This document shows positions 29,227-35,779 of a stretch of 64,000 nt of DNA, in pieces. Location: positions 2,160,712 to 2,224,711 of the forward strand of contig CP075526.1 in assembly GCA_025808555.1 (NCBI GenBank), given 5' to 3'. The stretch comes from Anaerolineales bacterium. Lineage in GTDB: Bacteria > Chloroflexota > Anaerolineae > Anaerolineales > UBA11579. Under the pieces are notes generated by a model. The model was given only the letters and a program-made list of their open reading frames with translations, made no database searches and had not been told where the DNA came from. The stretch's first letter is position 1, and each line of letters starts with the position of its first letter. The translations under genes and the position numbers were made by a program.

Positions 29227-30255
29227 TTGACCAATAACAGAGTTACCAGCCACGACGTTGCTAAAGCTGCGGGTGTCTCCCGGGCTACTGTTTCTGTTGT
29301 GCTTAATAACCTGTCGGGTATCGCCATCAGCGAGGCAACCCGCCAACGAGTGCGCGATGTCGCCAAGCGGCTCAATTACTCACCAAACTCTGCCGGCCGC
29401 AAGCTAGCCAGCGGCAAATCCAACACCATTGGCCTGGTGCTGCGCCAGTCACCTGAACAGGTATATGCAGACGCTTTTCTCACACGAGTTATGTTCGGCA
29501 TAGAGCAAGCCGCGATGAAACATGGATACCACGTGCTACTGAAGCAGGTTGATCCAGCTGACCCGGTTGGCTATAGCCACCTGGTCAGCGAGAACCACGT
29601 GGACGGCATCATTCTGTCTGGTCCGCGCCAGGACGACCCTGATCTCTTGCGCCTGATGCAGGATGGCGTGCACATCATGCTGCTGGGCCAGATGCCCGGC
29701 AGCCTCATCCCCTTCGTGGATATTGACGCTACGCGCAGTGCGGAGCAGGCAGTACGCCACCTGGTGCAATTGGGCCACACACGCATTGCCATCATCACCA
29801 ACGCCAACCTGAGCTACACATCTGCCCGGCAGCGCCGCCTTGGCTACCAGAACGCTTTGGAACAAGCCGGGCTGCAAGTGGATGAGAGCTATGTCAAAGA
29901 AGGCAATTACACCCCCGGCAGCGGCCTGGCAGCCATGAACGAATTGCTCACCCTGCCCACCCCGCCCACAGCAGTATTCGTGGCAAGCGATGTTGTGGCC
30001 CTGGGGGCCATGCTGGCGGCCAAGAACGCCGGCCTGCGCATTCCGCAGGACATGGCATTCGTCGGCTTTGACGACATCGCATTGGCCGAGTTCTACGACC
30101 CCCCGCTCACCACCGTGCGCCTGCCGGGCTACAAGCTGGGCATGATGGCGTGTGAGCGTTTACTCCACTTGCTGAAATGGGGCAAATTGGATCAGCCTGG
30201 CTATCTATTCGAAACAGACCTCGTCGTTCGTTCATCAAGCATCGCCACGTCATAA
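29227..30255 (+). CDS. LacI family transcriptional regulator
   Basis: 342 residues, TTG start at 29227. N-terminal helix-turn-helix TSHDVAKAAGVSRATVSVVL (about residues 7-26) with the hinge NYSPNSAGRKLASG, then a periplasmic-binding-protein-like effector domain (IGLVLRQSPEQVY, VDGIILSGP, FVGFDDIALAEFYDPPLTTVRLP). The binding gene, permeases and trehalose synthase follow on the same strand, so it most likely controls their expression in response to a disaccharide such as trehalose or maltose (inference from context). Confidence 0.93.
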   Translation: MTNNRVTSHDVAKAAGVSRATVSVVLNNLSGIAISEATRQRVRDVAKRLNYSPNSAGRKLASGKSNTIGLVLRQSPEQVYADAFLTRVMFGIEQAAMKHGYHVLLKQVDPADPVGYSHLVSENHVDGIILSGPRQDDPDLLRLMQDGVHIMLLGQMPGSLIPFVDIDATRSAEQAVRHLVQLGHTRIAIITNANLSYTSARQRRLGYQNALEQAGLQVDESYVKEGNYTPGSGLAAMNELLTLPTPPTAVFVASDVVALGAMLAAKNAGLRIPQDMAFVGFDDIALAEFYDPPLTTVRLPGYKLGMMACERLLHLLKWGKLDQPGYLFETDLVVRSSSIATS

Positions 30256-30380
30256 TCCTGATTTTTGAAAGCATGCCACTTCACAAAAAAGGAGGTACTG
30301 TCGCTAGAAACCGAAACTGAATGCGTCTAAGCTATAAGGCGCGTGCTTCATTGAGTCACTATCCGGAAGGAGAAGTAAGT

Positions 30381-31712
30381 ATGTCCAAGCATTTGAAGTT
30401 TTTTCTTGCACTGACCGTGTTCAGCCTGATCCTGGCTGCCTGCGGCGCCGGTGCGCCCGCCCCCACAGAAGCCCCTGCTGAGCCGACGATGGCCCCCTCC
30501 ACTGATGCGCCGGACGAGCCTATGGACGACATGTGCTACGGCGCAGCCCCTGGCGATGAGGTCACCATTCTCTACCAATGGTCTGGCGCCGAGGAAGAGA
30601 GCTTCCACGCTGCCATTGCCCCGATCGTGGAGGCCTGTGGTTTGACCATCGTCCCCGAGTCTTCACGTGATCAGGCTCTGCTGGAAACCCGCATCGAATC
30701 AGGTGACGCATGGGATCTGGTGTTCTGGCCCACCGTTGGCCCGATCGGCTCCTATGGCGACCAACTGGTCGCTCTGGACAGCCTGGGTGCGGATGCAGGC
30801 AACTACGCCCCCGCCTGGATGGCCACTTCGGGTAGCGGCTGGCTGGGTGTAGCGGTCAAGGCCGACCCCAAGTCCATCGTGTGGTACAGCCCGGTTAACT
30901 TTGACGCGTTTGGCTACAGCGTTCCCACCACGTGGGATGACTTTGTCGCCCTGGCTGACCAGATGGTTGCCGACGGCAATGTTCCGTTCTCCATGGGCTT
31001 TGAAAGCGGTGATGCCACCGGCTGGACCGCATCCGACTTCATCCAGGACATTCTGCTGGCCACCCAAGGCAGCGCGTATGTGAATGGCATCCTGGATGGC
31101 TCGATCGCCTACAATGACGCCGGGGTTGCCGCTGCGTATGAGATCTACAGCGGCTGGGCGACTGACCCGGCTTACGCCGTTGGCGGCGCCGAGGGCTCGC
31201 TGAGCACCGGCTTCCTGGATGCGATCATCAAGCCCTTCGGCGATCCGCCCGAGGCGATGATGGTCAAGCAGTCTGGCTTTGCTGGCGGCGTAGTTGCTGA
31301 CCAGTACCCCGAGCTTGAATTCGGCACTGACTTCAGCTTCTTCCACTTCCCCGGCGCCGATGGCGTGCAGGGCGGTGCGGACTGGATGATGGCCTTTGCC
31401 GACACGCCGGCGGTGCGCGCCATTGTGGCGTACCTGACCAGCGCCGAGGGCGGCGCCCACTGGGCCGCCACTGGCTTTGGCCTGTCCCCCAACAGCGGCT
31501 CGGCCGGCAACTATGCTGACCCGATCAACGCTGCTTTGGCTGATGTGCTGGCTGGCGCCAGCGCTGCCACGCCTGACATCGGCGACTCCATCCAGCCCAG
31601 CTTCGGCTCGGCTGAGTGGCGCGCCATCGTGGACGTGGTGAGCGGCGCTTCCAGCATTGACGCCGCACTGGCGGGTGCAGCTGAAGCTCAGGCTGCCGAC
31701 CAGGGCAACTAG
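30381..31712 (+). CDS. Sugar ABC transporter substrate-binding lipoprotein
   Basis: Captures sugar outside the membrane. 443 residues from ATG 30381, which has AAGGAG 8 nt upstream. Signal peptide with lipobox LILAACG, then an Ala/Pro/Thr/Glu linker and the extracellular solute-binding fold of family 1 (WDLVFWPTVG, VPTTWDDFVALADQM, AAYEIYSGWATDP, GGADWMMAF). A hairpin follows the stop and separates it from the permease genes. LacI regulator upstream and trehalose synthase downstream suggest an alpha-glucoside such as trehalose or maltose. Confidence 0.9.
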   Translation: MSKHLKFFLALTVFSLILAACGAGAPAPTEAPAEPTMAPSTDAPDEPMDDMCYGAAPGDEVTILYQWSGAEEESFHAAIAPIVEACGLTIVPESSRDQALLETRIESGDAWDLVFWPTVGPIGSYGDQLVALDSLGADAGNYAPAWMATSGSGWLGVAVKADPKSIVWYSPVNFDAFGYSVPTTWDDFVALADQMVADGNVPFSMGFESGDATGWTASDFIQDILLATQGSAYVNGILDGSIAYNDAGVAAAYEIYSGWATDPAYAVGGAEGSLSTGFLDAIIKPFGDPPEAMMVKQSGFAGGVVADQYPELEFGTDFSFFHFPGADGVQGGADWMMAFADTPAVRAIVAYLTSAEGGAHWAATGFGLSPNSGSAGNYADPINAALADVLAGASAATPDIGDSIQPSFGSAEWRAIVDVVSGASSIDAALAGAAEAQAADQGN

Positions 31713-31723
31713 CGCAACACAAC

Positions 31724-31755
31724 AAAGGCCCCAGGGCAGATGCCCTGGGGCCTTT
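31724..31755 (+). promoter_or_regulatory. Intra-operon hairpin after the binding-protein gene
   Basis: Stem of about 14-15 bp, AAAGGCCCCAGGGCA against its complement with a 2-4 nt loop, not followed by a T tract. It likely protects the upstream mRNA or partly attenuates transcription, giving more binding protein than permease. The same arrangement is found after pstS at 39448-39485. Confidence 0.75.
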
Positions 31756-31798
31756 GGCACCTGGCGGCGCCAGGCTGCAAGCGGAGAGGAGACCTCTT

Positions 31799-32758
31799 GT
31801 GAGTGAGCGCATTCCCAACATCATGCGGCAAGGCCGCATAGCGCCATGGTTGTATCTGGCGCCAGCTCTTATCATTATTCTGGTTTACATTGTTTATCCA
31901 GCGTTCAATACTTTCTACCTCAGCCTGCTGGACAAAGATTCGCTGAACTGGGCATCCAGCGCCTGTGTACAGGGCCGCCCCTGCTGGGGCATTTTTGAGA
32001 ACTATCGCTACGCCTTGACCAGCGAATTAGATACGACCAGTGCCGCCACGATATGGCGTACGTTCTGGATCTCATCCTTTGGCAATAATCTCAAATGGAT
32101 CCTTGGCCTCGTCACCGGCGCAGTTGCGCTTGGCCTGCTGATGGCCGTGCTCTCGGACAAGGTGAAGTACGAGTCATTGGCCAAATCGGTCATTTTCCTG
32201 CCAATGGCGATCTCGTTCGTGGGCGCGGGCGTGATCTGGAAGTTCGTCTACCACTTCGGCACCGACAATACCCAGATCGGGCTGCTGAATGCGATCGTGC
32301 GCGGGCTGGGCGGCGAACCCATCTCGTTCATGACGCGCATCCCGCTCAACACCTTCATGCTGATCGTTGTAGGCATCTGGATGTGGGCGGGCTTCTGCAT
32401 GGTCATCCTCTCGGCAGCCATCAAGAGCGTGCCGTCCGAACTGCTGGAAGCCGCCCGCATGGACGGCGCCACCGAGTGGACCGCCTTCTGGAAGATCACG
32501 GTCCCCGTCATCCTGCCGACCATCGTAGTGGTCATCACTACGATGGTGATCAATACGCTCAAGATCTTTGACGTCGTATTCGTGATGACCGGCGGCAACT
32601 ACAGCACGGATGTGATCGCCAACCGCATGTATGCAGAGATGTACGTCAACCAGCAAACCGGGCGCGGCACCGCCGTGGCGATGGTGCTGGTTCTGGCGAT
32701 TATTCCCTTTATGTATCTCAACATCAAACGCTTCAGAGAACAGGAGGCTATGCGCTAG
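31799..32758 (+). CDS. Sugar ABC transporter permease (MalF-like)
   Basis: 319 residues. GTG start at 31799 chosen for the GAGGAG site 9 nt upstream. Six hydrophobic helices (first: WLYLAPALIIILVYIVYPAF), and the EAA loop that contacts the ATPase: ELLEAARMDGATEWTAFWKI followed by TVPVILP. The first outside loop has a Cys pair (ACVQGRPCWG), probably a disulfide. The second permease follows after 14 nt. No ATPase gene is in the cluster, so a shared MsmX-type ATPase elsewhere is assumed. Confidence 0.93.
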   Translation: MSERIPNIMRQGRIAPWLYLAPALIIILVYIVYPAFNTFYLSLLDKDSLNWASSACVQGRPCWGIFENYRYALTSELDTTSAATIWRTFWISSFGNNLKWILGLVTGAVALGLLMAVLSDKVKYESLAKSVIFLPMAISFVGAGVIWKFVYHFGTDNTQIGLLNAIVRGLGGEPISFMTRIPLNTFMLIVVGIWMWAGFCMVILSAAIKSVPSELLEAARMDGATEWTAFWKITVPVILPTIVVVITTMVINTLKIFDVVFVMTGGNYSTDVIANRMYAEMYVNQQTGRGTAVAMVLVLAIIPFMYLNIKRFREQEAMR

Positions 32759-32772
32759 CGCATAGAGACACC

Positions 32773-33960
32773 ATGAGCGAACGCATGAAACGCTTCCTGG
32801 CCAGCCTGCCCTTGCATGTCATTGTGATCGGCATGGTGGTGCTCTGGCTGCTGCCCACCCTTGGCCTGCTGGTCACCTCATTCCGCCCTGTGCAAGACGC
32901 CAACACCAGCGGGTGGTGGACCGCATTCTCGGCCCCCAAGGCTGGCGCCGAGTACACGGAATTCTGCGCCGGCTGCCATGGGCCAGAAGGCGACGCGATT
33001 CCGAGCGCGGATTTTAGCGATCCGGAGTACGTGGCGCTGTTTCGCCGCTCGGTGCAGCTGGCCGCCACCTTCAACAACACGTTGCCGGATGGCAGCATCC
33101 ATGTGCCCGAGGACGAGCGCCCCACTACACAACAGCTCGCCGACATCTTGACCCAGATACGCGGCTTTGCCGGCGTGGAAGAGCGCCCGCGCTTCACCTT
33201 GAACAACTATGTGGATGCGCTGGTGGGCTACCGCGGGCGCACCAGCTATGCTGAGGACTGCGCTGCAGGCACACAATCCACCGATCTGACCTGCGATTTC
33301 GCAACCGACCTGGGCAACAGCCGTGGCATGGCTCGGGCTTTCGTCAATACGCTCATCGTCACCATCCCGGCCACCATCTTGCCGCTGATCTTCGCCGCCC
33401 TAGCAGCCTATGCCTTCTCGTGGCTGCATTTCCCCGGGCGCATGTGGCTGTTCGCGTTGCTGGTTGGTCTGCAGATCGTGCCACTTCAGATGACCCTGGT
33501 GCCGATATCCAAGCTGTATCAGCAACTTGGGCTCGGTAGCACCTTCCTGGGCGTGTGGCTATTCCACACGGGCTTTGGCCTGCCGTATGCCATCTTCCTG
33601 ATGCGCAACTTCATCGGCTCGCTGCCGCGCGATCTGTTCGAGTCCGCCTACCTGGACGGCGCAAGCCACTGGACTGCCTTCACACGCCTGGCGCTGCCGC
33701 TTTCGCTGCCGGCGTTGGCATCATTGGCTATTTTCCAGTTTCTGTGGGTATGGAACGATCTGCTGGTAGCGCTAGTGTTCCTCTCTGGCCGCCAGCCGGT
33801 GCTGACCTACCAGATCAACGGGCTTGTGCAATCCCTGGGCGGCGGCTGGCACTTGCTGACCGCCTCGGCCTTCCTCTCAATGCTGCTGCCGATGATCGTC
33901 TTCTTCGGCTTCCAGCGCTTCTTCGTGCGCGGCCTGCTGGCCGGCGCGGTCAAGGGATAG
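32773..33960 (+). CDS. Sugar ABC transporter permease (MalG-like) with inserted c-type cytochrome-like domain
   Basis: 395 residues against about 280 for ordinary MalG. Helix 1 is at about 12-36, then an outside loop of about 150 residues, then five helices and the EAA loop LFESAYLDGASHWTAFTRLA with LPLSLPAL. Inside the loop (about residues 60-137) lies a haem c attachment motif C65-A-G-C68-H69 followed by GPEGD, and a C-terminal part SIHVPEDERPTTQQLADIL that resembles the end of class I cytochromes c, with His110 where the Met ligand usually sits. A second Cys pair (DCAAGTQSTDLTC) comes later in the loop. The loop is outside the membrane, as haem c attachment requires. The reading frame is continuous, so this is one protein and not two overlapping genes. 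Confidence 0.88.
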   Translation: MSERMKRFLASLPLHVIVIGMVVLWLLPTLGLLVTSFRPVQDANTSGWWTAFSAPKAGAEYTEFCAGCHGPEGDAIPSADFSDPEYVALFRRSVQLAATFNNTLPDGSIHVPEDERPTTQQLADILTQIRGFAGVEERPRFTLNNYVDALVGYRGRTSYAEDCAAGTQSTDLTCDFATDLGNSRGMARAFVNTLIVTIPATILPLIFAALAAYAFSWLHFPGRMWLFALLVGLQIVPLQMTLVPISKLYQQLGLGSTFLGVWLFHTGFGLPYAIFLMRNFIGSLPRDLFESAYLDGASHWTAFTRLALPLSLPALASLAIFQFLWVWNDLLVALVFLSGRQPVLTYQINGLVQSLGGGWHLLTASAFLSMLLPMIVFFGFQRFFVRGLLAGAVKG

Positions 33961-33997: not shown

Positions 33998-34105
33998 GTC
34001 TTTGCGAGGCGCCGCGAAGCGGCGCAGAAGCAATCCCCGAGCTGAATGGAAAAGCTTGGGGATTGCTTCGCTTCCACTGCATTGCAGTGCATCGCTCGCA
34101 AAGAC
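33998..34105. repeat. Intergenic palindromic element with cloverleaf-like folding
   Basis: 108 bp closed by an 11-bp perfect inverted repeat GTCTTTGCGAG (33998-34008) / CTCGCAAAGAC (34095-34105). Inside are three hairpins: GCGCCGC-GAA-GCGGCGC (34009-34025), GAAGCAATCCCCGAGCT against AGCTTGGGGATTGCTTC (34027-34043 and 34053-34069, one mismatch), and CACTGCA-T-TGCAGTG (34075-34089). It fills most of the gap between the permease and trehalose synthase genes. Confidence 0.85.
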
Positions 34106-34150
34106 TATCTCAATGCATCTGAGTATTTGGACTCCGGAGTAACCTGTCTC

Positions 34151-35779
34151 ATGCAACCCACACCCCTTTGGTACAAAGACGCCATCTTCTACGAGCTCTA
34201 CATCCGGGCTTTCAAGGACAGCGATGGCGATGGCCACGGTGACATCCGTGGCGTGATAGAAAAACTGGACTATCTTCAAGACCTGGGCATCAACTGTATT
34301 TGGCTGTTGCCGATGTTCCCCTCCCCCCTCAAGGATGATGGCTACGATGTAGCCGACTTCTACAACATCCATCCTGACTACGGCACTCTGCACGATTTCA
34401 AAGAGCTGGTGGACGAGGCGCACAAGCGCAGCATTCGCGTAATAGCTGACCTGGTGCTTAACCACACCTCTGACCAGCACCCGTGGTTCCAGGAGGCGCG
34501 CAAAGGGCCAGACAATCCCAAGCACGACTATTATGTCTGGAGCGATACCCAGGACAAATACCAAGACGCACGAATCATCTTTTTAGACACCGAGGATTCC
34601 AACTGGAGCTGGGACGAAGAAGCCAAGCGCTACTACTGGCACCGTTTCTACTCTTCACAGCCCGATCTGAACTACGACAACCCGGAAGTTCAGGATGCAA
34701 TGATGCATGTGGCCAAGTTTTGGCTTGATCTAGGCGTCGATGGGTTCCGCTGTGATGCAATCCCCTATTTGATTGAGCGTGAGGGTACCAACTGCGAGAA
34801 TCTGCCAGAGACCCATCTATATCTTAAAAAGCTACGCCAGTTTGTGGACGAAAATTTTCCTGACAGTATTCTGCTGTCGGAAGCCAATCAATGGCCGGAA
34901 GATGTGCGCGAATACTTCGGCGAAGGGGACGAGATGCACATGGCCTTTCATTTTCCGATCATGCCAAGGCTCTTTATGGCTATGCGCAGGGAAGACACCA
35001 CGCCTATTCGAGAGATCCTGGAACGTACACCCGAGATCCCGCCAAATGCCCAATGGTGCACGTTCCTACGCAACCACGACGAACTCACTCTGGAGATGGT
35101 CACTGAAGAGGAGCGTCAGTGGATGTGGGAGCAATACGCACCAGAACCACGCATGCGCCTCAATCTTGGCATCCGCAGGCGCCTCGCACCGCTACTGGAC
35201 AACGATTTCAGGAAGATCACCCTTGCGAACTCCCTACTTTTTACGTTGCCCGGCTCGCCAATATTGTACTACGGTGACGAGATTGGCATGGGCGATGACA
35301 TTTGGCTAGAGGATCGCAATGGCGTTCGCACTCCAATGCAATGGAGCAAGGGTAACCAAGCTGGTTTCAGCCCCAGCGCCACGGCATATTCGCCGGTAAT
35401 CGATTCTGCTCCTTATGATCCGACGCATGTGAACGTTGAAGACCAAATGAGTGATTTAGCCTCGCTTTACTACGTGACAAAAAACATGATTGCGATGCGC
35501 AAAACCCACCGCGCCTTTGGCTGGGGCAGCTTTGAATGGGCCAACACTTCGCACCCCACCCAAGTGGCCGCGTATTACCGCCGCCATGAAGGCGAAGAGC
35601 TACTGATCCTCAACAACTTGAGCAGTCAGGAAATTGACTTGTGGGTAGAGATCCCGGATCGGCCGCTGTTCTTCCCGCCGCCCAATCTGTTCACGGGTCG
35701 CGCCACGGGCGAGCTTGTCGATGGCCGCCTAAGCCTGAAGCTGGCCGGCCACGGCTACGAATGGCTTAAGCTGACGTAG
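34151..35779 (+). CDS. treS: Trehalose synthase / maltose alpha-D-glucosyltransferase (GH13)
   Basis: Interconverts maltose and trehalose in the cytoplasm. 542 residues from ATG 34151; upstream in-frame sequence belongs to the repeat element. Starts [20 protein letters not shown] like other TreS. GH13 catalytic residues: nucleophile Asp in [11 protein letters not shown], acid Glu in [10 protein letters not shown], and Asp in [12 protein letters not shown]. Also [14 protein letters not shown]. No fused maltokinase domain. An oligo-1,6-glucosidase or amylase is less likely given [17 protein letters not shown]. Its 3' end overlaps the convergent arsC by 14 nt. Confidence 0.9.

Follow-up and report, generated by a model that had tools for sequence, protein, structure and literature searches.

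Can a sugar importer permease carry a c-type cytochrome domain in one of its outside loops and, if it does, what would a haem be doing there? The question is raised by a gene in the window (the whole stretch of 64,000 nucleotides of Anaerolineales DNA that was analyzed), where positions 32773-33960 of the forward strand encode a 395-amino-acid protein, followed by a stop codon, that is a MalG-like permease of the CUT1 class of ABC importers with an extra outside domain. The Pfam domain BPD_transp_1 was matched by residues 207-387 with an E-value of 1.5e-14 (54.6 bits against a cut-off of 26.4). In phmmer searches, residues ~186-395 aligned with mycobacterial SugB (8ja7_B and 7cad_B, E-value 2.5e-25) and with MalG (2r6g_G, 3.2e-15). 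The NCBIfam model of maltose permease MalG proper, NF008231, was matched at 77.6 bits, below its equivalog cut-off of 261. In a non-redundant set of 33 insert-bearing homologues of less than 90% identity, residues E290, D295, G296 and A297 of the EAA region do not vary. The permease core is intact, as shown by the BPD_transp_1 match, in agreement with the first-pass annotation of the locus, which was made from the DNA letters and claimed an intact EAA loop and helices.

A hydropathy profile places TM1 at residues ~5-40 and TM2 at residues ~187-221, with a loop of residues ~37-186 between them, in agreement with the earlier placement of the insert in the first outside loop. Since MalG-type permeases have their N terminus inside, this loop should face outward; its sidedness is thus inferred from the permease families. 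A full-length AF2 model of the permease was set aside (pLDDT 54, pTM 0.37).

The extra segment spans residues ~50-140 (positions 32920-33192; this and all features given below lie on the forward strand) and is described as an inserted cytochrome c-like domain on profile, fold and alignment evidence. The CAGCH motif at residues 65-69 (32965-32979), the GPEGD that follows it, the TTQQLADIL segment and His110, all of which had been read in the first pass, are indeed encoded by the open reading frame. All 15 inserts tested against Pfam (matches up to an E-value of 1) hit the cytochrome c families Cytochrome_CBB3 and Cytochrom_C, the best E-values being 9.2e-7 and 8.1e-6, as would be expected from the earlier claim of cytochrome c likeness. 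The window's own insert falls under the gathering cut-offs (17.6 vs 27 bits), and the whole window permease gave cytochrome matches below threshold only. Profile-profile comparison by hhalign matched the insert profile to free His/Met cytochromes of the same class with a probability of 98.5%. Among matches of profiles to PDB sequences, the top ones (WD40/WRAP chains) were discarded as repeat artefacts, and the cytochrome matches ranked below them were retained.

The AF2 model of the insert alone suggests a class-I-like fold (pLDDT 83.9, pTM 0.73). A predicted fold unrelated to cytochrome c would have refuted the first-pass reading; instead, 41 of 43 PDB matches retrieved by Foldseek were c-type cytochromes, with no single match being significant (best E-value 0.085), and VIA scores of the model against cytochrome c6 and an anammox cytochrome reached Z values no higher than 7.2. 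The insert is best read as a true c-type cytochrome domain that resembles class I. That it carries covalent haem c is inferred from the families, and attachment itself has not been shown.

Homologous permeases were collected by scanning GTDB r220 with one genome per species and by searches among relatives, in the class and in the family. These searches yielded 57 distinct permeases of the clade that have the insert and one that does not. All 57 come from class Anaerolineae where placement is known, the cultured Levilinea saccharolytica being among them; the survey of the class gave 26 strong matches among 396 genomes. The CAGCHG segment of the window permease (residues 65-70, positions 32965-32982), which would contain the covalent haem attachment motif and the proximal His69, corresponds to a CxxCHG that is kept, together with His110 (33100-33102), in 57 of 57 insert-bearing homologues. 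Equally long homologues without CxxCH would have spoken against a haem site, but none was found among the 57, and the sole motif-less member lacks the entire insert. Outside the clade, the CxxCH motif is present in none of 21 permeases, versus 57 of 58 within it.

In the non-redundant set, C65, C68, H69, G70 and H110 are the sole invariant positions of the 91-residue insert, whose mean pairwise identity is 0.45 (minimum 0.24), compared to 0.76 for the permease core. Synonymous codon variants were found at all five sites, including the codons of both cysteines and both histidines. As judged from the alignment, invariant residues in a divergent insert are the pattern of a haem site under selection in a domain that is otherwise free to change. 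The insert is neither a chance feature nor an assembly quirk.

The usual distal ligand of class I cytochromes is a methionine; in the insert, the place of the ligand Met is taken by the invariant histidine. The residue right after His110 varies (V, L, M, T or I). In a joint alignment, which is uncertain by a few residues in this region, this histidine is aligned with, or stands next to, the Met that serves as ligand in the free cytochromes. The two-histidine ligation named in the earlier prediction is strengthened by the invariance of His110; ligation by His69 and His110 is inferred from the families. The accompanying statement that the insert has no Met holds for the window's insert but is not general, since many relatives do have Met there, often directly behind the invariant His, as PHM.

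In the phylogenetic tree, all insert-bearing permeases and the insert-less member, L019, form one clade (support 100/99) separate from the 21 motif-less permeases; one gain and one loss therefore suffice to account for the distribution. A survey of the phylum revealed no further group with the insert, which was seen solely in genomes of the window's own order. In three genomes of the window's genus (G004, G009 and G010), the clade permease is best matched by a relative that has no insert, lies outside the clade and is ~60% identical; the haem version is thus not universal in the genus. In other Anaerolineales MalG-like permeases (L053-L060), the first outside loop likewise carries an insert (GATGTFDQFREG...WVGNKRLGRIEVQE), but one that is unrelated and has no CxxCH.

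The first-pass annotation had noted that the organism makes c-type cytochromes, and other class I cytochromes as well as cytochrome c assembly proteins were found, two Cytochrom_C_asm proteins being encoded in the window's genome. Such proteins are present in 56 of 58 insert-bearing genomes, the two exceptions being 72-73% complete, and in all 42 that are at least 90% complete. The class background is high (217 of 234 comparable good genomes, ~90%; p about 0.08, without correction for relatedness), so this co-occurrence was rejected as independent evidence and amounts to consistency, not proof.

L019 (Anaerolineaceae UBA8523) is nested in the clade (subgroup support 100/99). Its permease is missing exactly the insert, with the rest of the loop retained. 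No Cytochrom_C_asm and no Cytochrome_CBB3 match was found in its 3.6-Mb genome, the completeness of which is not reported, and its close relatives G493 and G494 keep the insert and have the maturation machinery. L019 can be regarded as a natural haem-free control. Among genomes of the class without Ccm, no further insert-less clade members were found, none lying near the clade, and the argument from insert loss thus rests on a single event.

The gene stands in a conserved cluster. Upstream are genes for a LacI-family regulator (29227-30255), a sugar-binding lipoprotein (SBP) of the importer (30321-31712; weak NCBIfam sugar-SBP matches) and a MalF-like partner permease (31754-32758; BPD_transp_1 E-value 1.6e-20); downstream is a gene for the GH13 trehalose synthase TreS (maltose alpha-D-glucosyltransferase, 34046-35779; TIGR02456, 826.8 bits over a cut-off of 678.35). 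The order of regulator, SBP, MalF and cytochrome-bearing MalG genes is unchanged down to Levilinea, and TreS adjoins in 11 of 15 insert-bearing loci. Because of this transporter cluster and TreS, the substrate is likely trehalose or maltose, an inference from the families.

Both permeases have a pair of cysteines in the first outside loop. In the MalG-like subunit, Cys163 and Cys174 (33259-33294), in the remainder of the loop, probably form a disulfide; they are invariant in 33 of 33 non-redundant members and retained in L019. In the MalF-like partner the pair is part of an AC..G.PCWG motif, which was present in all clade members seen and in L019 and absent from relatives outside the clade.

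Cytochrome c homology, strict conservation of the ligand set, maturation machinery, a conserved operon and loss of the insert in a machinery-less genome are all observed. As a whole, they are best explained by a bis-His haem c domain in a CUT1 importer that most likely serves as a switch responding to redox state or a small ligand, a reading to which we assign a probability of about 0.5 and in which both attachment and gating are inferred. A single insertion, in an ancestor within Anaerolineae, would have put the cytochrome domain into the MalG-like subunit of a trehalose/maltose-type importer, in its first extracytoplasmic loop and close to the docking place of the binding protein. Haem would be attached at C65 and C68, with His69 as its proximal and His110 as its distal ligand, and would serve as the switch: the contact of the loop with the sugar-binding protein or MalF may change with the oxidation state or when the distal His is lost, which would tune the transport cycle. 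A switch on transport is our first choice of function, ahead of electron transfer and structural docking, but a tentative one that is pure inference. The fuller proposal of a haem-gated importer, in which the redox state of the outer haem c or a small ligand outside decides trehalose or maltose uptake, is a possibility that we hold with slightly more reserve. Redox gating of sugar uptake is plausible but undemonstrated, there being nothing in the sequence that demonstrates gating.

A stably bis-His haem suits electron transfer equally well. The haem domain may be real and have electron transfer as its job, the permease being a membrane anchor that holds the cytochrome near the SBP or surface redox proteins; electrons could, for example, pass to or from extracellular partners, or nearby disulfides could be kept in a given state. 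Known bis-His class I cytochromes are electron carriers, as exemplified by MtoD of Sideroxydans, a c-type cytochrome with ligation uncommon for its class and a lower potential (PMC11511738). MtoD shares with the insert its class and two His ligands (predicted for the insert), but is a free carrier of an iron-oxidation pathway with no transporter part. The genomes hold other class I cytochromes, and the outside loops of MalG and MalF each hold a conserved Cys pair. However, no conserved redox enzyme adjoins, the conserved neighbours being the regulator, the transporter genes and TreS, and since the Cys pairs are retained in L019, they are independent of the haem domain. We consider this function unlikely, though the strongest of the alternatives.

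A mainly structural role, with the domain being a rigid extracytoplasmic element for SBP docking and the haem merely stabilizing its fold, appears doubtful. It would accommodate both the unrelated insert of L053-L060 at the same loop and the fact that L019 dropped the domain yet kept the transporter genes, but further residues would be expected to be conserved on a docking surface, and in the insert the haem-site residues alone are invariant. It is very improbable that the CxxCH binds no haem at all and is a coincidental motif, a site for zinc or thiol-disulfide chemistry, or the relic of a non-binding cytochrome: the window's insert taken alone is under the Pfam cut-offs and there are no haem chemistry data, but CxxCHG and His110 persist in 57 of 57 divergent inserts through synonymous codon changes, the motif is absent from the 21 permeases outside the clade, and a thiol or zinc site needs neither G70 nor an invariant His that is far from the motif and stands where the distal ligand would be.

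Among known systems, the core and EAA region align with the CUT1 permeases MalG and SugB, with which the adjacent MalF-like permease and SBP are also shared, but none of the solved MalG/SugB permeases aligns to the ~90-residue CxxCH domain. With class I cytochromes c (cytochrome c6 and the anammox proteins 7o38 and 5mxy), the insert shares CxxCHG with its following Gly, the C-terminal helix and, as far as the individually weak structure matches tell, the predicted fold; it differs in the invariant His that replaces Met as presumed distal ligand and in its location in a transporter loop, class I cytochromes c being free or in a respiratory complex. In E. coli CydDC, haem enhances the thiol-stimulated ATPase activity (PMC4132815); this haem-binding ABC transporter is a precedent for haem-responsive activity, but is an exporter that binds haem b non-covalently and has no cytochrome domain. 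Bce-type ABC permeases (PMC3023708) resemble the Anaerolineae permease in having an unusually large extracytoplasmic loop, which is tied to sensing and partnered with a sensor kinase; that loop is no cytochrome and the response, mediated by the histidine kinase, is to antibiotics. No cytochrome c domain in an ABC permease was found described in the open-access literature, subscription papers being outside the scope of the search, and the novelty of this arrangement is likely but not certain.

The external cytochrome-like domain suggests that sugar uptake is tied to redox conditions in one Anaerolineae lineage. If haem is attached and tunes transport, a redox cofactor bound covalently to the outer side of the permease would be a new means of ABC importer control, the known alternative being control through the ATPase or gene expression, and carbon uptake would be directly linked to redox conditions around the cell. 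Anaerolineae, mostly regarded as fermenters, occur in abundance in anaerobic digesters and wastewater reactors. Since the type strain KIBI-1 of Levilinea saccharolytica is in culture and carries the gene, and since L019 is available as a haem-free control, the proposal can be tested at once. In L. saccharolytica, the SBP-MalF-MalG-TreS block occurs twice in near-identical form (L016 and L017), near both ends of contig NZ_LGCM01000045.1, which may be due to duplication or to an assembly effect.
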